From positions 22,789 to 86,788 of the forward strand of contig JAMKCH010078973.1 of NCBI GenBank assembly GCA_023653785.1: 64,000 nt of DNA. The letters are read 5' to 3'. The position numbers were made by a program, and so were the translations under genes. The notes under the pieces are model-generated. The model was not told where the DNA came from and did not search any database. It was given only the letters and a program-made list of their open reading frames with translations. The stretch comes from Ophioderma brevispina. Lineage: Eukaryota; Echinodermata; Ophiuroidea; Amphilepidida; Ophiodermatidae. This document shows, piece by piece, positions 2,641 through 45,390 of this stretch. Each line of letters starts with the position of its first letter. Within the stretch, counting starts at the first letter, position 1.

Positions 2641-3190
2641 CCCTCGTCTTACCAGGGGGGGGGGGGGGGGGGGGTGGTTACGGCTCCGGTGCGCTAAAAA
2701 GCAAAAACTTTTTGTAAAAAGCTTCTAGTTAATCATTCTCTCATCCTATCCGGTCATTTTAAGCGAAAAAAACTGTAAGGTAGCACCTTCACCCGGGGTC
2801 GGGTATGCCGTCAAAGTCGAAGGGTGGGGGGGGGGGCGAATTTGGGGGGGGGGTGGTTGCCACCCAAGGATATTTTATGGTGCATTTTTGAATATTATGC
2901 ACCGTAAATGGCTCTAAAACTCTATGTTTTTATGTAAAACTAGCCAAATGCCATCATTTAGAGGCTGAAAACCGCATGAAATCCGATATTCTCCTGCGAT
3001 TTTAGCGCAAAATTGGGATTTTCGCGCCTATTTTCGGTTGGAAAATGCCAATGTTTGCCGACTCGCGGACTTGATGACGTCATTGTGACGCCATACTAGT
3101 ATTTTTGTACTTTATTTTGTTCATGGAAAGAGGAGACGCATATCTAGCCATTGGTAATCAAAATCATAAGCACAATCGGGTGCTTATAAC
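2641..3190. mobile_element. piggyBac-like MITE copy, right end missing
   Basis: Starts CCCTCGTCTTACCA followed by 20 G (2655-2674). The interior shares long stretches with 55643-56299 (for example GATGACGTCATTGTGACGCC near 3073). The full copy at 55.6 kb shows this end to be a terminal inverted repeat next to TTAA. Here the flank reads TTTAAACA and the right end is not recognisable. Confidence 0.6.
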
Positions 3191-3689
3191 CTCATTCGTA
3201 TGGGGAGGGCGGCGCAAGAAATCACATTTCAGACGTCGCCATTGGGTTTAACACGTAAAGCGAATCTACTCAAAAACCGTTGAGCTGAAGAATCAACCCA
3301 TTGGAGGGTTATTTTTCCGAATTGTTTGTATTAATATCGAACTAAGGACGAGGTCGTCTGTGGGTCAGGGAACACCTATGAACCGAACCACATCAAAGCA
3401 CCAAATTGGTTTGTGGTTTGTACTCCTATTGTTGTAATTCGTTTTTGACATTTTTGGTGAGTTGCTCAATTGAATGAGACTGTGCCGCCACCTAAGCCGT
3501 CCTTTCATTCGGGTAAAAACTAGACAATTTCTTGTGAATATTTCCTAATATATCTAACATCCATACCTGACGACAACCGAACTTAAAAACATCCGGAATG
3601 TCAAATACTTTGGTCGTTCTATAATATACAGGCTCCCTGGTTTTCATATCGGTCGGTGTGCGGGAAACAACCAGTGCATTTGATCTTGA

Positions 3690-3995
3690 ACAGCAAAGCC
3701 TCACAGTAGTAACAACGTTAACATGAACATAAAAAACCGCATATGTAACATTTTCGGGAGACCCAAAATCTACCATTTGGCTGTAATGCCTTGCATTTTT
3801 AGATAATTATTTACCCCAGAATTCTGAAATCCACTGCCAATGATATACTTCATATTTGGCTGAAATTCAAACTAGAACCCAATGTGACCAAAATGTACAT
3901 AGAGGTTTTAGCACTGGGGCCCATTTTTTACGTAGTTTTGCATTTTGGAACCTCGAATTATATATGAGGTTTTTCCCCCCAGCGACGATATCATG
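3690..3995. repeat. interspersed repeat shared with 57.1-57.45 kb
   Basis: About 300 bases resemble 57110-57445 (CATATGTAACATTTTCGGGAG, then GATAATTATTTACCCCAGA, then CAGCGACGAT). The 57-kb copy has inverted ends and is described there. The minus-strand ORFs over 3492-4097 cross this repeat and are not believed to be genes. Confidence 0.55.
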
Positions 3996-16267: not shown

Positions 16268-16500
16268 TGGAATTAACACTTCAGTGACCACGGGGGGGGG
16301 GGGGGGGGGTCCTAGGGACCCCGCAATTTGTTTTCGCGCTGCGCTTTACGCGTGGGTTTTTTTTCGCGCCGAAATTTTTGTAATTGTCGACTTTTAAATG
16401 CTCTTCTTTTCATACCAAAAAAATAATCGGCCAAGCCGTTAATGAGTTAATTCGTTGAGGGTCCCATGGAACCCCCCCCCCCTTGGGCACTAACGTAAGT
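16268..16500. mobile_element. G/C-tract MITE family 2, complete copy
   Basis: Left arm: CAGTGACCAC, 18 G (16292-16309), TCCTAGGGACCCC. Right arm: GGGTCCCATGGAACC, a C run, then TTGGGCACTAACG. The arms are inverted copies with the homopolymer at the same place in each. The right half recurs at 21230-21331, and arms or single ends recur at 28054-28290, 28.8 kb and 53.79 kb. Confidence 0.7.
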
Positions 16501-17667
16501 CATTGTGAGAATATGTTTAAATATAAGAATAAGAAACAGGGCGAGAACCAATCAATTTTTTTTTTTGCCTGATATAAGTTCACACAATACAATTAGATAA
16601 ACAATTATTAGTAACATTAAATAATTAACCCTTTGTGCTGAAAACAACGTTTCATCATGTACGTTGCCAACCGTTTGCTGTCATAGGCGGATTTAGGGGG
16701 GCCCCCTATTTTTTGCAACCAAAGGGCGCGCCGGGCGCCTTGTATATGTAGAAAAATGCCTTTTGCCGCACAGCGCGCCCGGGCGCCCTAAAATGACCTT
16801 TTGTGGCGCCTCTTGCCGACACAATTTTGTAAAAATTTTCCGGCTTGGGGCGCGGCGCTCGCCGTGAGACACAATTTTTTTTCATTCTGTTTGAAATTCT
16901 GAAGAAAGCAGGGGGTACTTTTCGTTGGTTTTGTGTCTTTTGTGCTCTGGTGCTTTAAAAAAATTAAAATCTAGGCGTTGCCCACTTCCCACCCCCCCCC
17001 CCCCCCCCCCCCCGCTCTTACAGAATTTAGAACCGAGTGAAAAAAAATTGGGTCTACCCGGCGAGCGAAGCGAGCCGGAAATTTGTTAAAAGCGAATAGT
17101 GACGGGCGCCCCACCCCCCCCCCTATTGAGGTAATCCTGGATCGCCCGACGGTACAAAACTCTATGGGAAAATGACATGGATTTGCAACACCCGTAAAAA
17201 ACAGGATTCCTAAAAATAAGTTAATTTGGGTCTTCTAGAATAGATATCACTAAAATAGTTTTCAAAAAGTTGGGATGTAAGCGCAAGGATCATTGAATTT
17301 TCCGTCTTCTTTTGGCCCATTTTTCGGGTTTGGAAAACAATTGTGCCTCCAATTTTGCAGCCCAAAAACAAATTTCATTTTTTATTGCGGATTTGGGTTG
17401 TCTTATGACTCTTTACATGTGGTATAAAGTTCGTTCAAAAATTCCCTCGGGAAATGGTTTCTTGGGGGGGGGCGGCCCATGCCCCCCCCCACCCTTGGGC
17501 ACCAACGGGAGTGAACAGATTTATGATGAAAACCTTAAAAAAAAAACAGAGCGTCGAAAATGGTCCAATATAATACTTGATAATACTCCTGAAAATACTC
17601 CTCTATCAATACCCTTCCCAATCTTCCCCATCCCCATAGTACATATCCAATGTGCGTAACTTGAAAA

Positions 17668-19848
17668 TTCTTCGTTTATCGTGTCAAACACTGTGGTTCA
17701 AATATGATCCAGCGGATGGGTCAACGTCTGGCTGCTCAACTGAATTCCGCAAGGTCCTCTTTGTGCATTGTTGCTCCGCAGTGGGCAGACCAAGAGGCTT
17801 GTCATTGTCTGTGCTGCTTCCACAACCACAGGTAGTATCCTGATCTGCTTCCAGATAGCCCCACTCTGCAAGGAAACCTTCGATCGGCCAGTTATGGTTC
17901 CAATCGATTGAGGGCATCGCCATTCAAGCCCAGGAGGAGTCAGCTCCAGGTGGGAGATGATCACAAAGGTTTTTTTTTTGTTTCAATACAGATAGATGTT
18001 AATTGGTTGATGGCCCCAAAGGGGTCTTTCTTTCCACAAGGCGACCTCTCTTAACCTCCTTAGAGATGTTTCAAGAGGTGTGGGATAACTTTGCTTTAAG
18101 AAAGCTCTCGGGATTACGACGGTTGGCAGCATTGGTATCTAACCAGACATAGGGTGCTTCACATTGGATTACTTGGCAGCATACGCTCTTGCATGCTCGA
18201 TACCCTACGACGGATGTCTGTGGAGCCCATGGAGCAATTTCCTGCTAGGATGACAAGTTTTCCGTTAGGTGTTGGACGGAGCATCCTGTGATAAGGCCGG
18301 CCAGGAGGCATAACGCTTGGATCAAGCTTCTTGGATGGGTTGATCTTTCCCCATACAGGGGCAGGCATACTCTGCAATGAGTAGCACAGGGCAAGTGTGC
18401 CGTCGATCTTAGGGTTGTGGGCGAGCACCCCATCTTGTGCCAGTAAGTTTGCTCAAAGATGTTATTGGGAACTACTGTCCTCTTCGTCTTCTCGATGTGG
18501 GTCTTTTAAGAGAGAGGGCGTCGTCTCAGGAACTCTAGGTAGACTAGGGTTATCACAGTGCTCCAGTGGGAGTTCCAGACCAGTAACTTTAAGTGATGTT
18601 TGGCTTCCCGGTTTGCGTAGATGGAAAGCACACACTGTGTCTTAGATGGCTTTGCACCGTAGATGGTTTCCTTATAATAAGGAGTGAGTTTCACCTAAAG
18701 CTTTGGAGAGTCTCTTCAACAAATGTGAAGTCGGCATTGTGCGCGAATTCCCAGAGCGTCTGAATAAATAACGACAAGTTCCGCACTCCTAAGGTGGTCG
18801 GTGGTATATATGTTGAACAGGAGGGTGCTAAGCACACTCCCTTGGGTAGACCATTCTGGAAGCCTAAGCCATCGGCTATTCTTCGCCTCCTAGGCGAAAC
18901 AAAGTGAACATCCTGTTGCCAAGCATTCATCGGATAAGCTCAGTCAAGCGGATTTGGTCCTTGGTAATTTCCAGGAACTTATGGAGTAGGCATTCGTGAT
19001 TAACAGTGTCGTATCCTGCTGAAGGGTCGCGAACAACAGACCGGTTACCATTTACCCTTTCTCGAACCATCCTCATGCTGTGAGTTGGTTGAGTTACTTG
19101 GCTGTTGTTGATTTGCCTGGCCGGAACCTGCTTGTTATGGTATATGAGGTGTGGTCTTATCAACAGGTGCGCTACGATTGAGCAGGAGGTCGTTCAAAGA
19201 GCCTTGTAGGTATGGCTAAGGAGTGATATAGGATTCGTGTAGCTCTGGGTTGGATGGATCGTCCATGCTTTAGGGAGTGCCATAAACATGATGCTTTCCT
19301 CCAGATCTTTGCGAACCTGTAGGAAATAAGTGTGGTGGCAGCAAGTGTAGAGCTCAAGAAGCCATTCCTTTGCTACTGGGCCAAGATTTTTTAGTGTCAG
19401 TAGAGATGTGTCAAGGCCTACTGCTTAAAATTCCTGTTTGAAGTTTAGCAATACCTGACTCCAATTCGTCCATGTTGAAGAGGGGGCGGGCGAAACCAGG
19501 GTCACCACTATACGTCTTGTGGTCTCGTTTGATCTTCTTGGGTTCTTGCTCTGCACATGGACATTTAAAAAGCGTTGGTGGGAACTGGTTGGGTGTGACA
19601 TTTGGCTGCTGGGGAGGTTATGTGGGCGTCACCTCGGAGCTTTCGGATAATAGACCATGCTTTCTTGCTGTTATGGGTCATATCGGTGGATTTCAATTGA
19701 AAGTGTGCCATGGTTTTGATCTTTTCCTGTCGTCCGTCCGAAAATTCCTCACCTTTAGCAGTTGTTCAGCTGAAAAAGGGATCCGCTTCAAACATGGTGA
19801 TATACTCTGATAGTCTCTGCACATTCCTTGGCAAGGCCTGGTATATAT
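17668..19848 (-). pseudogene. non-LTR retrotransposon RT fragment, copy 1
   Basis: On the minus strand, pieces of one reverse transcriptase ORF appear in order across many frames: a fingers region near 19.3 kb (SYRFAKIWRKA), VNHECLLHKFLEITKD near 19.0 kb, GLPKG..LAP near 18.8 kb, then CVLSIYANREAK and the C-terminal region (EADQDTTCGCG) near 17.8 kb. The same protein is read more cleanly in copy 3 (33.2-34.7 kb), where the YADD catalytic motif is visible. The clade resembles Jockey/CR1-type LINEs. Frames change every 50-200 bases, in agreement with noisy sequence. The 3' end carries a GAA-type tail, and the 5' side is cut by the TIR element at 19849. Confidence 0.8.
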
Positions 19849-21188
19849 ACGTGGAGTCAATACAAAAACCCTACATTTCAGGAAAACAGTTTTTCTTCAA
19901 AGGTTAAACGGTTGAAGGTTGATTTGGTTGTTTACATGGATATATAAAAAAGGCATTCAGAAGATTTTATTGGTGTCTTTCGGACTTGGGTTCAGGAAAC
20001 TATGTCAATTTTGCGGAGAGACCTACAAATTCAGTTTGGCCGATTTTACGCATTATCATGTTTTGGGGAGTCAAGTGTGGTTGTGAAAATAATCGGATCC
20101 AAAACCATGAAATGATAAAAGTGGATGATTACGCCCAATATTAATTGGTCTCGCTATTGGTTTTAAAATATTGGGCTCGAATGCGTCTCGCCCAATATTT
20201 GCAACTCATAGCTCTACCAATTAATTTAGAAGGCCCTAAATCGATCCATATTTTATATCATACAATGAGGGAGAGAGGACTGACAACCGAACGTAACATA
20301 ACACTTTATGCAAAGACAATTCAACACATGGCAATTCAGATGGTAGCGATTTCTTCTAGTTATCTGACCCCAAAACATATCAGTTTGAATAAAACTGGTT
20401 ATTTGTAACATAAATGGTATAAGTAAAATATCTTCCAAAAATTAAATTACCATTGTTCAATCATAAAAGAGTCCGTTGGTTGAAATACTCCTTTCAATTG
20501 TCTCAGTCATTGGAACATAATGAAACTCTCAAAGAGTTGTTTTACATCTCTAAGGTAATTATTGTGCACAAAATACAGTATATCAGCGGCCATAAATTGC
20601 AGAAGAAACTAAAGTGAAGTTTACTGTAAATAAATCGGCAATTAAAACTAAATCAATATCGCACTGTGTTTTTTCAAGCGGGATACAAAACCTTCTATGG
20701 TTTCACTTTTGATCCCAGGTTTCGTTATAATATTAGGTTAAAAACCATGAAATCTTGCGGAACCAAGTAAACTGTAGTCTTGCACCAGCTATCTTATTTA
20801 GGAATTTCTTATTTGGGAAATTTAACATTGTTGTACTTAGCATTTTTTATGGGATATTATTGTATAATCTTTCAATTACTCTCGCCCTTCTTATTGTTTA
20901 ACAATAAGTATGGTGTTAAAATATTTGTACCTCAAATTACCTGCTGAAGACCATCATGTGTTACTCTATGTAAGCGATTCATCGTTGTTGGCGATTGAAA
21001 TCGGTCCCCAAAAGGATTTGCAAGTCTCTCAGCAAAATAGGGTTCAATTTCTTCCTACAAAGTCCAAATGACACCAATAAACGTTTTCTGAAAAGCTCTG
21101 TATCCTCCTTTATACATATAGAACAACATTTGAGCAAAAACAACTTTTAAAACTATTTTAATTTTATTTTTTATTCTTGAATGTAGGG
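19849..21188. mobile_element. nested TIR element, unit 1 copy (right end replaced)
   Basis: Matches 24703-26039. The left end (GTGGAGTCAA..AAAACCCTACATT) is present. The right end stops at TGTAGGGTTTTTTTT, where unit 2 begins, so the terminal ACTCACACTG is missing here. Confidence 0.65.
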
Positions 21189-24100
21189 TTTTTTTTCGCG
21201 CCGAAATTTTTGTAATTGTCGACTTTTAAATGCTCTTCTTTTCATACCAAAAAAATAATCGGCCAAGCCGTTAATGAGTTAATTCGTTGAGGGTCCCATG
21301 GAACCCCCCCCCCCTTGGGCACTAACGTAAGTCATTGTGAGAATATGTTTAAATATAAGAATAAGAAACAGGGCGAGAACCAATCAATTTTTTTTTTTGC
21401 CTGATATAAGTTCACACAATACAATTAGATAAACAATTATTAGTAACATTAAATAATTAACCCTTTGTGCTGAAAACAACGTTTCATCATGTACGTTGCC
21501 AACCGTTTGCTGTCATAGGCGGATTTAGGGGGGCCCCTATTTTTTGCAACCAAAGGGCGCGCCGGGCGCCTTGTATATGTAGAAAAATGCCTTTTGCCGC
21601 ACAGCGCGCCCGGGCGCCCTAAAATGACCTTTTGTGGCGCCTCTTGCCGACACAATTTTGTAAAAATTTTCCGGCTTGGGGCGCGGCGCTCGCCGTGAGA
21701 CACAATTTTTTTTCATTCTGTTTGAAATTCTGAAGAAAGCAGGGGGTACTTTTCGTTGGTTTTGTGTCTTTTGTGCTCTGGTGCTTTAAAAAAATTAAAA
21801 TCTAGGCGTTGCCCACTTCCCACCCCCCCCCCCCCCCCCCCCCCGCTCTTACAGAATTTAGAACCGAGTGAAAAAAAATTGGGTCTACCCGGCGAGCGAA
21901 GCGAGCACTGAAAATTGTAAAAGCGAATGTGACGTCGCGCCCCCCCCCCCCCCATATTGAATTCCTGGATCCGCCCCTGACTGTACAAACTCTTATGGGA
22001 AAATGACATGTATTTCAACAACCCGGTAAAAAATACAGGATTCCCTAAAACATATAAGTAATTGGGTCCTTCTAGAATAGATATCAACATAAACTAAGTT
22101 TTCAAAAGTTTGATGTAAGCGCAAGCTCTTGGAATTTTCCGTCTTTTTGCCCATTTTTCGCGTGTTTTGAAAACAATGGGTTGCTTCCTAATTTGTCAGC
22201 CCAATAACAAATTTTTCATTTTTATTGCCTGATTTGGTGTTGTCTTATGACCCTCTACAAGGTGGTAATAAATTTCGTTCAAAATTCCCTCGGGACAGTT
22301 GGTTTTCCTTGGGGGGGGTGGGGCCCTGCCCCCCCCCCCCCCCTTGGGCACCAACGGGAGTGAAACAGATTTTTAGTGATTGAAACCTAAAAAAAAAAGA
22401 GCTTTCAAAAATGGTCAATTAATACTCTTGATAATACTCCTGAAAATACTCCTCCTTCATCAACCCTTTCCCAACAACCATCTTCCCCCTCCCATAAGTA
22501 AATATCCAATGTTGGTAACTTGAAATTCTTCTTTCTTATCCTGTCCAACACTGTTGGTTTCTCAATATGATCCAGCCGGAGATGGTACAACGTCTGGCTG
22601 CTCAACTGAATTCCGCAAGGTCCCTTCTTTGTGCACTTGTTTGCTAAAGCAGTGGGCAGACAAGAGGTGTTCCATTGTTTGTGGTGCTGTTCCACAACAC
22701 AGGTAGTATCCTGATCTGCTTCCATATAGCCCCCACTTCTGCAGAAACCTTAGATCGGCCAGTATTTCTGGTTCTCAATCAGTGGGCCATCGCCATTCAG
22801 CCCCATGAGGAGTCATCTCCGTTGGAGATGCTCCCCAGTTTCAATACCGATAGATGTTACTTAGTTAGCAAGTCTTTCTTTCCACAAGGCGACTTCTCTA
22901 ACCTCTTAGAGACTGTTTCAAGAGGTTGAACTTGCTTAAGAAACTCTCTCTGGATTTAAGACGGTGGCAAGCAGGTATCTGCCAGACATAGGGTTCTTCA
23001 CATTGGAATACTTGGCATCTACGCCTCTTGCATGCTCGCTACGCTACTACGGAATGTCCTGGTGGATCAATTCCTGCTAGGATGTAACAAGTTTTTGGCC
23101 GTTGTGTTGGACGGAGGCTCCTGTGATAAGCCGGCAGGAGGCCACATTTACGCTGGATCAAGCTTTCTTGGCATGGGTTGATATTTTCCCCTACAAGGCA
23201 GGCATACGCTGCCATGAGTAGCACAGGGCAAGTTGCCCGTCGATCTTGAGGGTATTGGGCGAAGCACCCATCTTGTTTCCATTAATTTTTTCAAGATTTA
23301 TTGCGTGAACATACTTACTCTTCGTCTTCTCGATTGGGTCGTTATAAGAGAGAGTCGCTGCGGTCCAAAGGTAACTCCTATGGAGACAGGGTTTTTTATC
23401 ACAGTGCTCCACTTGGGATTTCCAGACCAGTTAACCTTTAAGCTGATGTTTGGCTTCACGGTGTCTGCGTATATGGAAAGCACACACCTGTGACTTAGAT
23501 GGATTTGCCACGGTAGGTGGTTTTCCTTAGTAATAAGGAATTTCGGGGGTTCATCCAAACCTTTGGAGACTCGCTCTTCAACAACTGTGCATTGCATCTG
23601 CTGCGCGACAGTGTGTGCGCAATACCTGGTGCTATGCATAAATAAAAGCGCACAAGTTCCTGCACTCCAGGTTGGTCTAGTAGGTATAGATATGTTGAAC
23701 AGGAGAGGTTCAAGCACACTCCCTGTGGTAGACCTATCTTGAGCCTAAGCCCTCGCTCTCATTCGCTCCTAGCGAACAAAGAACATCCTGTTTGCCAGCA
23801 TCCCGGATAACTCGTCAAGCGGATGTCCTTGGGTAATTTCCAGGATCTTATGGAGTAGGCTCCTGTGTGATTAACAGTGTCGTATTCTGCTGATAGGTCG
23901 ACGACACAGCTCCTGTTACCATACCCTTCTCGAACCATCCTCAATGTGTTGAGTTGGGTTGTGTACTTGGCTTTTTGTTGATTTGCCTGGCCGGAAACCT
24001 GCGTGGTCTGGTATGAGGTGTTCTCTATCACAGGTGCGATACGAGTGAGCAGGAGGCGTTCAAAGAGCTTTGTAGGTAGGCTAAGGAGTGATCTAGGTCT

Positions 24101-26020
24101 GTAGCTCTTTGGGTTGTGATGGATCTCTCCCATGCTTTAGGAGTGCCATAACATGTGCTTTCTCCAGATCTTTGCGAACCTGTAGGAAATAAGGCAGCAA
24201 TTGTATAGCTCAAGAACCTTCCTTGCTACTGGGCCAAGATTTTTTAGTTGCTCCGTAGAGAGATGTGTCAAGGCCTACTGCTTTCCTGTTGAAGTTTAGC
24301 AATACTAGATTCCAATTCGTCCATGTTGAAGGGGCGAGTGAAACCAGTCACCACTAATACTCTTGTGGTCTAGTTTTGATCTTCTTGGGTTTCTTGCTGC
24401 ACTTGCCATTTAAAGCAGTTTTGGTGGGCTACTTGGTTGGGTGTGACATTTGGCTGCTTGTGGAGTCTGTTGGGTCCACCCCTCGGAGCTTTCGGATATA
24501 GACCATGCTTTTCTTGCTGTTATGGGTCATATCGGGTGGATTCAATTAAAGTGTGCCAGGTTTTGATCTTTTTTCCTGTTAGATCCTTTCCGAAACTTCC
24601 CTCACCTTTAGCAGTTGTTTCGCTGAAAATGTCAGCTTCCAAACTGGGGTGGTATACTCTTGATTATTCTCTAGCACATTCCTTGGGAAAGGCCTGGTAT
24701 ACCAGTGTGAGTCAATAAAACCCTACAATTCAGGAAAACATTTTTTTCTTCAAAGGTTAAACGTTTGAATGTTGCTTTGGTTGTTTACTGATAAACAGGT
24801 ATCAGAAATATTTTTATTTGTGTCTTTCGGACTTTGGGTTCAGAAACTATGTCAATTTTGCGGGAGAGACCTACAAATTCAGTTTTTGGCCGATTTTTAG
24901 CCATTATCATGTTTTTGGGGATTCCAAGTTTGTGAAAATATCGGATCCAAAACATGATAATGGATAAAATTGGATGGATTTTACCCAATATTATTGGTCT
25001 CGCTTATGAGTTTAAATATTGGGCTCGACTGCGTACTCGCCCAATATTTTTGCAACTCCATAAGCTTTACCAATTAATTTGGGCTTATCGATCCAATTTT
25101 TATATCATACAATGCGGGGTGACTGACACCGACGTATACATAACACATTATATCAAAGACAATCACACATGCAATTTCAGATGGTATCGAATTCTTCTCT
25201 ATCGACCAAACATATCAGTTTTGAATAAACTGGTCTATTTTGTAACATAATTATAAGTAAAATATTCTTCAAAAAATTAAATTACCATTGTTCCATCATA
25301 AAGAGTCCGTTGTTGAAAATCACTCCATTTCCATGTCTCAGTTCATGACATAAGAAACTGCTCAAAGATTGTTGTTTTACATCTCTAAGTAATTATTTTT
25401 GCAACCAAACATATACTCAGCGTCCCTAAATTGCAAGAAGAACTAAGCTGAAGTTTACTGTAATAAATCGGAATTAAAACTTAAAATTCAATATCTCACT
25501 GCTGTTTTTTTCAAGCGGAATACAAAACCGTCTATGGTTTCACTTTTTGCTGACCAAGGGTTTCGTTATACTAGTAGGTTAAAACCATGAAATCTTGCAA
25601 ATCAAGTACAACTTAGTCTTGCCCCAGTCTATCTTTTGGAGATTCGTATTTGGAAATTTAACTTTTTTGACTTAGCATTTCTTCTGGGAATATTATTTTT
25701 ATTAATCTTCATTACTCTCGCACCTTCTATTGTTTTAACAATCCATCTGGTGTTAAAGATTTGTACTTCAAATTACTGCTGAAAACCATCATGTTGTAGC
25801 TCTATGTAGCGATGCCATCTTTGTTTGCCGGAACAATCGCCAAACAGGATTGCAAGCTCCTCCAGCCAAAATAGGCCGTAACTTCTTCCTAAAAAGTCCA
25901 AATGACCCCAAATAAACGTTTTTCTGAAAGCCTGTTTATCCCCTTTAATAACTATAGCAAACATTTGACAAAAACAATTCTTAACTAATTGTTAATTATT
26001 TTTGATTCTGAATGAGGGTT
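21186..26020. repeat. 4.83-kb direct repeat, unit 2 (noisy)
   Basis: Second unit, same order of parts as 16354-21188, including a C run of the same length (21823-21844, 22 C). Beyond about 21880 the two differ by dense small indels. Unlike unit 1 it continues into the missing right end of the nested element and the 5' part of the LINE, so it is the structurally complete one. Confidence 0.85.
22527..24702 (-). pseudogene. non-LTR retrotransposon RT fragment, copy 2
   Basis: Same element as copy 1, minus strand. Recognisable in order are SYRPRSLLSLPTKLFERLLL (fingers, ~24.1 kb), DTVNH (palm), a GGTCTACCACAGGGAGT coding word for PQGS (~23.73 kb), CVLSIYA and GNPKWSTVI (~23.45 kb), and the EADQDTTC and PCGIQLSSQT C-terminal region (22.6 kb). 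At least a dozen frame changes interrupt it. Its PQGS motif gives the unmutated state for comparison with copy 3. The LINE continues on the other side of a nested TIR element at 26040-26900. Confidence 0.8.
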
Positions 26021-26039
26021 TGTTTTTTTACTCACACTG
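24703..26039. mobile_element. 1.34-kb TIR element nested in the LINE
   Basis: Left CAGTGTGAGTCAATAAAACC; right end is the reverse complement of CAGTGTGAGTAAAAAAACAA, and ACCCTACATT-type sequence follows in both arms. Removing it makes the LINE coding sequence contiguous (EYIPG around the site), with about four bases (TATA) duplicated. No transposase ORF is visible, so it is non-autonomous. The superfamily is not clear. Confidence 0.75.
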
Positions 26040-33176: not shown

Positions 33177-33228
33177 CTTATTTGGTGCAAGTTCTTCTTC
33201 TTCTTATCGTGTCTAAACACTGTGGTTC

Positions 33229-34595
33229 TCAAATATGATCCAGCCAGAGATGGGTACAACGTCTGGCTGCTTCACTGAATTCCGCAAGGTCCTTGTTTGT
33301 GCATTGTTGCTCCAGCAGTGGGCAGACCAAGAGGTGTTCCATTGTCTGTGGTGCTGTTCCACAACCACAGGTAGTATCCTGATCTGCTTCCAGATTGCCC
33401 CACTTCTGCAAGGAAACCTTAGATCGGCCAGTTCTGGTTCTCAATCTATTGAGGCATCGCCATTCAGCCCATGAGGAGTCAGCTCCAGGTTGGAGATGCT
33501 CACTAGGTTCAATACCGATAGATGTTACTTGGTTGATGGCAAGTATTTCTTTCCACAAGGCGACTCTCTTTACCTCCTTAGAGACTGTTTCAAGAGGTTG
33601 GACTTTGCTTAACACCTCTTATGTACACAAAGGCAGCATTTTATAATACCTGCCACATGTTTTGATCGAGATCTCGATCACTTGAGCACAGTAAGTGTTA
33701 AGAAACTCTCTCTAGACCTAAGACGGCCGGCAGCAGGCACCCGCCCAGACATAGGGTGCTTCACACCTGATACCCGGCAGCTACGCTCCCGCATGCTCGC
33801 TACGCCACGAAGGATGTCTGGTGGAGCAATTCCTGCTAGGATGTACAAGTCCTCCGCCGGTGCCGGACGGAGGCATCACGTGACAAGCCGGCAGGAGGCA
33901 TCCAACGCCGGATCAAGCCTCCCGGCATGGGCCGACCCCTCCCACACAGGGCAGGCACACTCCGCACACGAGCAGCACAGGGCAAGTGCCGTCGATCTTA
34001 GGGCAAGTGGGCGAGCACCCCACCCGGTGCCAGTGAGTTTGTTCAAGATGTTATTGCGTGAACATACCTCACTCCCCGCCCTCCCAATGTGGGTCCCACA
34101 AGAGAGAGCGCGGTCCAAGGTGACTCCCAGGTAGACAGGGTTATCACAGTGCTCCAGGGGAGTTCCAGACCAGGTAACTTTAAGCTGACGTTTGGCTCCA
34201 CGGCTGCGCAGACGGAAAGCACACACCCGTGTCCCAGACGGACCCGCACGCAGGCGGCCTTCCTCATAATAAGGAGTGAGCCCATCCAAAGCCTTGGAGA
34301 GTCTCTCTTCAACAACTGTGAAGTCGGCATCCTGTGCGCTAATTCCAAGATCGTCTGCATAAATAAAACGACAGGCCCCCGCACTCCCAGGTTGGCCGTT
34401 GGTATATATGTTGAACAGGAGAGGTGCAAGCACACTCCACCGTGGTAGACCGCTCTTGAGCCCACGCCATCGGCTCCTCCTCGCTCCTAGCTGAACAAAG
34501 AACAGCCTGTTAGCCAGCAATTCACGGATAAGCTCAGTCAAGCGGATTGTCCTTGTTAATTTCCAGGATCTCATGGAGCAGGCGTCCGCGATCAA
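33229..34595 (-). pseudogene. non-LTR reverse transcriptase, copy 3, A-to-G hypermutated
   Basis: Two large ORFs cover the RT. 33876-34595 includes WKLTRTIRLTELIRELLANR, LLFNIYTNGQP and CRFIYADDLGIS, with the catalytic YADD box intact. 33229-33615 holds the C-terminal domain (WRCLNRLRTRTGRSKVSLQK and a TTCGCG zinc-like motif). They are split by an 85-base TTAA-flanked insertion. Right of that insertion the coding strand carries dense A-to-G changes relative to copies 1 and 2: the palm motif PQGS is now PRWS, and replacements such as Tyr to Cys, Lys to Glu/Gly, Asn to Asp/Gly, His to Arg and Thr to Ala dominate. Left of the insertion there is no such bias. The copy cannot be active: it is 5' truncated and motif-damaged. 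Confidence 0.88.
33613..33697. mobile_element. 85-bp TTAA-flanked insertion inside LINE copy 3
   Basis: TTAA at 33609-33612 and 33698-33701 flank 85 bases absent from copies 1 and 2. Ends read CACCTCTTATG and ACAGTAAGTG. The centre has the palindrome GATCGAGATCTCGATC. TTAA duplication suggests a piggyBac-type mini-element. Confidence 0.65.
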
Positions 34596-34668
34596 CAGCG
34601 TCGCATGCCGCTGAGAGGTCGACGAACACAGCTCCGGCCACCATACCCCCTCGAAACCATCCTCAACG

Positions 34669-34744
34669 TGACGTCATGAGAATGCCGAATTGTGAGGAGT
34701 GGACTTTTGGTGATGGATATTTGTGGAGTGTAATAATCTTCGAT
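34669..34744 (+). repeat. 76-bp patch, direct repeat of 35098-35173
   Basis: Begins TGACGTCATGAGAATGCC and ends AATCTTCGAT, with one mismatch to 35098-35173. It lies between the LINE 5' end and the right target-site duplication, so it was gained during insertion. Confidence 0.9.
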
Positions 34745-35097
34745 CCTTATTTGGTGCAATTTAATTTTATACTGTATTTTGGTTTTGAAAAATAAAAATG
34801 TGATATTATTTTATGCCAAAAATTGTGAACACATACAATATTTTCCTCTTATTGGCCTATTTTATCACAAACGATTTAAGAGTCAGTAAATTTAATGGAA
34901 ACCAAACTGTAGTCTTATTATTAACTTCTTATTTTCTGTTCTATAATATTCTACAATCCCAGACTTTGCGTTCTTTGTTTTTAGCCTAGTCAAAATGAAA
35001 ATCCGTAATTGTCATTAGTATCGTTTAAGTATATGGTCGGAATGACTATAAGCTTGCTCTGGAAATTGTCCATAGCCTCATCTTCCAGCCAAATGGG

Positions 35098-35173
35098 TGA
35101 CGTCATAAGAATGCCGAATTGTGAGGAGTGGACTTTTGGTGATGGATATTTGTGGAGTGTAATAATCTTCGAT
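35098..35173 (+). repeat. 76-bp source copy of the LINE 5' patch
   Basis: Begins TGACGTCATAAGAATGCC. It is single-copy flanking DNA about 340 bases right of the insertion. The CRE-like TGACGTCA inside both copies is probably incidental. Confidence 0.75.
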
Positions 35174-43899: not shown

Positions 43900-45390
43900 A
43901 AGATCTGATAATTCATCTCCTCCTACATATAGTCCAACCAAGGCTGTCATCATTTGTCCACCGAGGTTCGAATGTCTCCGACAAAAGGACACGGGCTAGT
44001 CTGTTTTGCAAAATTGGAGATCATTATGGTGCCCAGTATTGACATTGGACAAAAACAGAACTGCAGTAGTCAAAATGAGAAAGACCAAGGCTTTGGCCAA
44101 GCATATTGACTGTAGTATGATGAAGATAATGCTGAATTCTCCTGATTAAATACACCAATGTCTCTTGGAAAACTGAACAAACATAATCGGCATGATTGCT
44201 CCACAATAAATCGGACAAAAAATAACACCCCCAAATCTGTATAATTGACTCTTCAATATAAACATTTTTAATTTTGTAAATTTGTAAGTTTAAGACAGAA
44301 TGTTAATCTGTTGATTTCCAAAACATGACTTTAGTTTTTTTTATGTTAATGTAAGTTTGAGGCATTTTATCAATTAGTGTTCAGCTCATTTGTAGGGATT
44401 GGTTCAGAGAACTGACTAAAGGGTAGTTTCATCTGCGTACACAACATATTTGCATGAAACTGATTCAGGTACAGAATTCACAAAAATTATAAATAAAAGA
44501 GCACCAAGAATTGATCCTTGAGGTATCCCAATATCAATATTCTTAAAGTCTGAAAGTACAGAATTAATATTAACAGCTTGTGATCTACCTTTTAGATAAG
44601 AATTAAACCAATTTAATGCATTACCAGTGATACCATACTTCTTTAATTACTAAGAAGTAGATTATGATTTACAGTATCAAAAGCCTTCTTTAGATCTAAG
44701 AAGATAGATCCTGTTACTTTCCTATCATTTATATTATTAAGGATATGATCAGTTACATTTAAAAGAGTAGTATTAGTACTGTGTTTACTTCTAAAACCTG
44801 ACTGACACTGATTTAAAATGTTATTATGAGTAAGATAATGGTAAAGCTGATCGTGCACAGCACGCTCAAGAAATGTTGATAAAATAGGAAGAACAGAAAT
44901 GGGCCTATAGTTGTCACTTTTGTCACCCTCCTTGAAGATAGGTGTAACCGTAGCTTTTTTCCAATCAGATGGGAAAACTGAAGTGATCAAAGAAAGGTTA
45001 CAAATATATGCAAGTGGATAACAAATGATTGGTGCTGACAACTTGAGGAGTTTAATACAAACATTATCAATACCTGTAGCTTTATTATTAGAAAAGTTAC
45101 AGATCTGATCAAATACAAACACAGGAGTTATAATATCAAAATTGAAATTAGTTGTAATCTCATGGTTAGAAGTAAAATTATCACAACTATTATTATTATT
45201 ATTAGTTAGTTAGTTTATTGCCCAAAGTTTTTACCTACAAATACCCATTAAATTGATCTGCAATCTCCTTATCATCACAAGTAAAAACCTGAATTTGTTT
45301 TAATATTAGTTACAGGTGATGTATTCTTTGGAATTAATTTCTTAATTGTACTCCAAAGCTGATCTGCCCACACAAGTTTTAAATTTGGCA
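43900..45390 (-). pseudogene. CR1/L2-like non-LTR RT fragment, minus strand
   Basis: The longest clean segment, 44643-45122, reads ICNFSNNKATGIDNVCIKLL, FPSDWKKATVTPIFKEGDKS, NYRPISVLPILSTFLERAVH and SIFLDLKKAFDTVNHNLLLS. These are the RT fingers and first palm Asp. Beyond a stop and frame change follow NWFNSYLKGRSQ, IGIPQGSILGALLF and YVVYADETTL (second palm motif, normally YADDT), then HFDYCSSVF near 44.05 kb. The order matches a CR1/L2-type RT. To the right, ALWSTIKKLIPKNTSPV-type linker sequence is seen up to about 45.39 kb. It is broken by stops and shifts. Confidence 0.85.

Follow-up and report, generated by a model that had tools for sequence, protein, structure and literature searches.

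Genomic copies of an Ophioderma brevispina LINE with dense one-strand A-to-G substitution, very probably inserted from ADAR-edited RNA

The window is the whole stretch of 64,000 nucleotides that was analysed. It holds three copies of one LINE, whose sense strand is the minus strand in all three. Substitution classes are given for the LINE sense strand, and edited refers to its A>G positions. TSD, target-site duplication; RT, reverse transcriptase. The features are sorted by position.

17668..19075, minus strand: LINE copy 1, unedited, within a tandem duplication (repeat comparison)
22523..23948, minus strand: LINE copy 2, unedited, within the same tandem duplication (repeat comparison)
33177..33190, no strand: TSD copy at the LINE 3′ end, sequence CTTATTTGGTGCAA
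33191..33612, minus strand: LINE 3′ part of copy 3, unedited; A>G 5/99 relative to copies 1 and 2 where these are equal, 0/130 relative to the multi-copy majority
33613..33697, no strand: 85-bp insert between two TTAA, missing from copies 1 and 2, present in locus L053 at the equal LINE position
33717..34667, minus strand: hyper-edited part of the LINE, in RT coding sequence; the A>G changes are on the minus strand, which is sense
33876..34673, minus strand: stop-free frame of 265 aa spanning the edited RT region; RVT_1 below the Pfam cut-off; 407 homologues
34668..34744, no strand: 77-bp filler at the 5′ junction, a copy of 35097-35173 (76/77)
34746..34759, no strand: TSD copy at the 5′ end (from the sequence)

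The insertion of copy 3 consists of 33191-34667 and the 77-base filler, and is flanked by 14-bp TSDs (33177-33190 and 34746-34759). An earlier note on this DNA had described a clean 14-bp TSD around copy 3, which is present at these positions. It had also confined the LINE copy to the edited stretch; that stretch is borne out, but the true insertion is longer and its 3′ part is unedited. The source of the filler (35097-35173) lies about 350 bp past the target site of copy 3. The 85-bp insert of copy 3 (33613-33697) and of L053 (2761-2850) is flanked by TTAA repeats and has an 18-base palindrome inside; its LINE position is common to these two edited copies, and it is absent from a second partial copy in L053. 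The 265-aa frame scores 18.5 bits against RVT_1 (Pfam cut-off, 29.6), and its homologues do carry RVT_1. A reverse transcriptase fragment of a different LINE family is found at 44643-45209 on the minus strand (RVT_1, 49 bits). Rfam gave nothing at gathering score anywhere in the window.

Copies 1 and 2 sit in a 4.8-kb tandem duplication (16354-21196 and 21186-26026), the halves of which are 83% identical. In the parts that were checked, the duplication has very many indels, and transversions are about twice as numerous as transitions. Differences other than A>G number 124 in copy 1 and 98 in copy 2, and 10-43 in 33 unedited copies elsewhere. The duplication is possibly poorly polished sequence. 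Four copies (L048, L054, L057, L064) all begin at the same GGGG(G)AGAAGTAGAGA, so that the full-length element looks to be only about 3.1 kb long.

The three copies were aligned over 33697-34670, and substitutions of copy 3 were counted at sites where copies 1 and 2 agree. G is found in copy 3 at 82 of the 215 adenines agreed by the other two, and the other 11 substitution classes amount to 20 together. A>G makes up 82 of 102 substitutions and is confined to one strand; the other transitions are T>C 1/181, G>A 2/167 and C>T 4/186 (A>G versus T>C, Fisher p 1.3e-24). The edits span 33717 to 34667, and a strict count, which requires A in both copies 1 and 2, gives 16 A>G in 34200-34299. The value for the 3′ part of copy 3 (5/99) is at background level. 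Relative to the majority of unedited genomic copies (see below), A>G is 97/265 inside the block and 0/130 outside. Ten further repeat pairs in the window, including two that belong to the tandem duplication, were without comparable A>G bias. The edited share per codon position is.28,.41 and.48 (p.08); the changes are thus not limited to third positions. The dense and strand-specific A-to-G change first noted from the letters alone is confirmed by these counts. Among the amino-acid changes that had been ascribed to it, PQGS to PRWS holds as A>G for Q to R but not for G to W.

Copies 1 and 2, as members of a tandem duplication, count as one witness and are alone unable to give the direction of change. 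Copy 3 might be the ancestral form, with APOBEC-type G-to-A hypermutation of first-strand cDNA in the line that led to copies 1 and 2: the two copies are a tandem pair, hence their common changes, and DNA editing of retroelements is known to be of the G-to-A class. With the stop-free frame of copy 3 as query, 407 homologues were obtained, and the comparison drew on the 120 that were listed. The residue at 130 positions is the same in at least 70% of these 120; copy 3 departs at 27 of the 130. A>G accounts for 22 of the departures (one also by C>G), and the remaining five are accounted for by other classes or by none. With stricter conservation, A>G accounts for 13/14 departures (90%) and 6/6 (95%). 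None of the 120 listed homologues has more than three of the 22 changed residues of copy 3. Edited relatives were also sought among these 120; A>G-type changes outnumber G>A-type changes by at most 4, against 25 in copy 3. In the genome, 33 of 39 other fetched copies are without A>G excess and form a majority that copies 1 and 2 follow. The RT homologues, which have the A-coded residues, and the genomic majority together make copy 3 derived by A>G and exclude G-to-A editing of the others; an ancestral copy 3 is refuted and is regarded as practically impossible. The AID/APOBEC signature, a sense-strand G-to-A excess, is not seen in copy 3 (G>A 2/167). The view that copy 3 is the derived state therefore stands, with the 120 RT homologues, the other genomic copies and an unedited relative (see below) in agreement. 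Homologues and genomic copies, not the comparison with copies 1 and 2 made in the earlier note, settled the direction, the tandem pair not being independent.

The assembly (2.51 Gb, 65844 contigs) was searched twice. The query of search 1 was the edited part of copy 3; 6007 candidates gave 40 scored matches, and the 39 besides copy 3 were fetched. Their A>G counts are bimodal: six copies (L009, L014, L017, L018, L028, L032) have 74-128 of about 265 A, and the other 33 have 0-6. Copies 1 and 2 of the window, scored alongside, have 15 and 9. Each of the 33 ordinary copies has 10-44 differences from the majority. Because search 1 selected for similarity to copy 3, its sample is biased toward edited copies. 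Search 2, a fairer sample, used the unedited 3′ part as query (4564 candidates, 40 scored matches, 39 copies besides copy 3). Of these 39, 35 were retrieved as stretches of 280 bases; three others were already known (including the edited L014), and one at a contig end was left out. Informative copies are those whose LINE match has at least 28 A sites (22/35); the 13 dropped ones are without LINE upstream (7) or have a short or poor match (6). Two of the dropped poor matches, L069 and L102, have A>G 5/12 and 5/23 amid many other differences. One of the 22 informative copies, L101, is newly found to be edited, with A>G at 31/71 and 2 other differences. The edited share in search 2 is 2/25 informative copies, a small number drawn from a sample that favours copy-3-like 3′ ends. 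The edited copies total eight, on eight contigs, L101 being known from its 280-base stretch alone. Further copies with the same bias, suggested earlier as a check on copy 3, do exist (6/39 by likeness to copy 3, 1 new of 22 by 3′ end). Viral contigs were searched for relatives as well; 85 stretches fit a pattern and none was confirmed.

Seven edited copies were mapped on a reference copy (L054:2844 = 1). c3, copy 3 of the window. Edited adenines are given over all adenines of the block.

c3: 1707-2656, 97/265 A
L009: 326-2844, 246/751 A
L014: 1533-2679, 109/327 A
L017: 1225-2771, 223/457 A
L018: 969-3004, 146/595 A
L028: 1395-2838, 121/407 A
L032: 1301-2838, 157/435 A

Summed over the seven copies, A>G is 1099/3237 inside the blocks and 12/1259 outside. 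Edit rates per block are 25-49% over 0.95-2.5 kb, and within each block 69-88% of the differences are A>G, the rest including subfamily markers. The last stretch is unedited in the seven mapped copies (nearly so in one): in 2901-3100 of the element, G is found at 7/398 A sites, all in L018. For L032 these bins were taken from its second partial copy; its first copy is without edits past 2850. The long copies L009, L018 and L032 are nearly unedited toward their 5′ ends as well. The unedited 3′ ends may mean either that the duplex stopped short or that RNAs edited at the 3′ end were not copied. The blocks of L048, L052 and L053 end at a near-identical element position (2838-2844), as if the end of a duplex were fixed. 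Own TSDs are present in four of the seven copies: c3, L009 (L048), L014 (L049) and L028 (L052); none was found for the remaining three (L050, L051, L053). At 3260-3871, L053 has a second partial LINE copy, of whose 20 overlap edits 19 match the first copy; this points to duplication after insertion or to a haplotype joined by assembly.

When the seven copies are pooled, the share of edited adenines varies with the 5′ neighbour: U.517, A.452, C.288 and G.181. With a 5′ G, 10/61 adenines are edited in copy 3, against 80/188 otherwise, and 81/436 in the six other copies, against 468/1162 (p 6e-17). Among triplets of the seven copies, UAG is highest (37/62) and GAU lowest (14/112). The bias by 3′ neighbour is weak (G.391, A.362, C.340, U.272). 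The short L101 stretch has its highest rate after U (12/16), but the rate after G (5/15) is not the lowest (C, 6/22). Strong depletion of G 5′ of the site is described as an ADAR mark in PMC5625713 and PMC2873906; the 3′-neighbour preference of ADAR is given in PMC5625713 as G in mammals and reptiles and as A in invertebrates and amphibians. The neighbour context put forward in the earlier note as a check is thus found, 5′ G being disfavoured in copy 3 and in six others, and the rates fall in the ADAR order (U>A>C>G).

Two explanations that do not involve editing bear on these blocks. Error-prone DNA synthesis that places G opposite T (Pol iota, Pol eta), while the second strand was made or the insertion repaired, would likewise leave strand-specific, clustered changes, and the filler at the 5′ junction of c3 is a sign of irregular end processing. 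Such synthesis is nevertheless very unlikely in view of the rates and lengths (25-49%, 0.95-2.5 kb), the A>G share of block differences (69-88%), the ADAR neighbour order with GA depleted, and the unedited last stretches; enzymes of the Pol iota or Pol eta type are not known for such rates, neighbour order or unedited ends. A sequencing or assembly artefact could be suspected from the noise of the tandem pair (many indels and transversions) and from the number of contigs (65844). It is extremely improbable given that eight copies, each on its own contig, show the bias, that seven of them pooled have the ADAR neighbour order, that the blocks are sharp, and that the ordinary copies (33) have only 10-44 differences from the majority.

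The sets of edited sites differ between the copies. Edited sites in common number 32 for c3/L018 (expected, 28.6), 62 for c3/L017 (45.7) and 48 for L009/L032 (32.5); the last two copies are kin and are the pair with the largest excess. All pairs of the seven copies together have 832 sites in common (naive expectation, 659). A null that keeps neighbour context and local rate gives 772 (sd 14.5), and 0/2000 shuffles reach 832, so that finer preferences or some common cause remain; the excess may be due to finer enzyme preference. c3, L009, L018 and L032 have 11/11 other core markers in common, which makes them close kin; the 33 unedited copies have at most 4. This kinship, with the common sites above the neighbour-aware null (most in L009/L032), would be expected if all the biased copies, copy 3 included, descended from one amplified source copy that was edited or merely GC-rich. 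Such descent is contradicted by three sets of observations and is highly improbable. Kin on the whole hold no more edits in common than non-kin (c3/L018, kin; c3/L017, non-kin). The block edges differ between edited copies. Three unedited copies that bear the markers keep A: L078/L103 (7/7 covered markers) has A at 68/69 of the c3 edited sites, A>G accounting for 71/76 of the differences between the two; L099/L105 (7/7) has A at 63/67, and L086/L104 (4/4) at 44/45. Sites with G by descent were thus not found across the copies, and a small excess of common sites is left. No subfamily already bearing the G residues, the case that the earlier note had named as counter to its reading, was found among the copies compared. 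Editing of the whole c3 subfamily, hinted at by the sharing of markers, is ruled out by the same unedited members.

PF02137 (adenosine-deaminase domain) has 11 partial matches in the genome and 0 in the 14 control genomes of the search. It is found in two stretches of one contig, C51276. The best PDB match of the first stretch is human ADAR2 (E 1.2e-76); the HAE, PCGD and SCSDK segments, which are the catalytic segments, are aligned. An ADAR2-like deaminase domain is encoded in the genome. A PF02137 match on another contig (G000:C51282:8285-9148) crosses 8 TGA and 2 TAG and is perhaps a broken ADAR-type copy. No inverted LINE copy was found near the insertions in 18 loci of 8.5-10 kb. Self-structure was considered as the duplex and rejected: the sense strand of copy 1 (980 nt) has z 0.19, and 12/20 shuffles fold as well or better. 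With no nearby inverted LINE and an ordinary self-fold, an antisense RNA from elsewhere would be a likelier partner than a hairpin.

The edited copies very probably go back to LINE RNA that ADAR hyper-edited in a duplex and that was then reverse-transcribed into new insertions. In the germ line, the transcript of this young, high-copy LINE would lie, over part of its length, in a long duplex, putatively with another RNA. The host ADAR would deaminate about 37% of the adenosines in the duplexed part to inosine. The LINE reverse transcriptase would copy the edited RNA by target-primed reverse transcription, inosine being read as G, and copy 3 would have been inserted 5′-truncated with a 14-bp TSD. 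Separate events of this kind would have produced at least six other mapped copies of the same LINE in the same genome. Sense A>G, not T>C, fits RNA editing, as editing of the cDNA strand would yield sense T>C. ADAR is able to act on DNA within RNA:DNA hybrids and might have edited the DNA strand of the hybrid formed during target-primed reverse transcription; the first cDNA strand is antisense, however, and the sense T>C then expected is contradicted by the counts (A>G 82, T>C 1), which leaves this route exceedingly unlikely. ADAR editing of the LINE transcript before reverse transcription, as proposed in the earlier note, is supported by substitution class, strand, neighbour context and the further edited copies.

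A-to-I editing normally leaves no trace in DNA. Here it seems to have entered the germ line repeatedly, which would leave a nucleotide-resolution record of the RNA that was duplexed, its extent and the strength of editing. Past ADAR activity and preferences could then be read from genomes alone, and edited LINE RNA would by implication be competent for retrotransposition. For a wider interpretation, that the genome archives dsRNA footprints, the chances appear evenly balanced. Sense-antisense duplexes of the LINE would form recurrently in the germ line, and ADAR would have inactivated several percent of the young insertions before their arrival (2/25 informative copies in search 2); the edge at about 2840 (3/7 copies), like the unedited 3′ ends, would mark either the fixed end of an antisense RNA or a stretch that the reverse transcriptase needs unedited. 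If so, ADAR would mutate a LINE at the level of its RNA, as a mirror image of what APOBEC does to cDNA, and only RNAs with an intact tail would be copied, should the reverse transcriptase need an unedited 3′ end.

Hyper-editing of repeat RNA and APOBEC DNA editing of retroelements are already well known. No precedent for genomic LINE copies hyper-edited A-to-G was found in the open-access literature searched, most subscription papers being outside its scope. A-to-G hypermutated retroviruses and RNA viruses are known; they are like the present copies in substitution class and presumed enzyme, but are viral genomes and not germ-line LINE insertions. Later surveys of AID/APOBEC DNA editing of retroelements exist. 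ADAR hyper-editing of repeat transcripts across Metazoa (Genome Biol 2017, PMC5625713), for which CR1 in chicken and Penelope in lizard are the LINE cases named, likewise consists of dense one-strand A-to-G clusters in repeats with 5′ G depleted; it is described there from RNA-seq reads over unedited DNA, whereas the changes here are fixed in genomic copies. AID/APOBEC editing of retroelements, as presented in PMC2873906, is a clustered, strand-specific deaminase scar in genomic DNA, as here, but gives sense G-to-A via cDNA, whereas the A-to-G found here would require editing of the sense RNA. The same source gives A-to-G/T-to-C clusters as over-represented in high-quality traces of cDNA, not of DNA, in human and Xenopus. 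The effect of ADAR1 on L1 is ascribed, in PMC5974252, to binding to the L1 particle and not to editing. LINE target-primed reverse transcription, finally, is matched in the near-constant 3′ end, the 5′ truncation of many copies and the TSDs; it differs in the template, which on the present reading would be an edited RNA.
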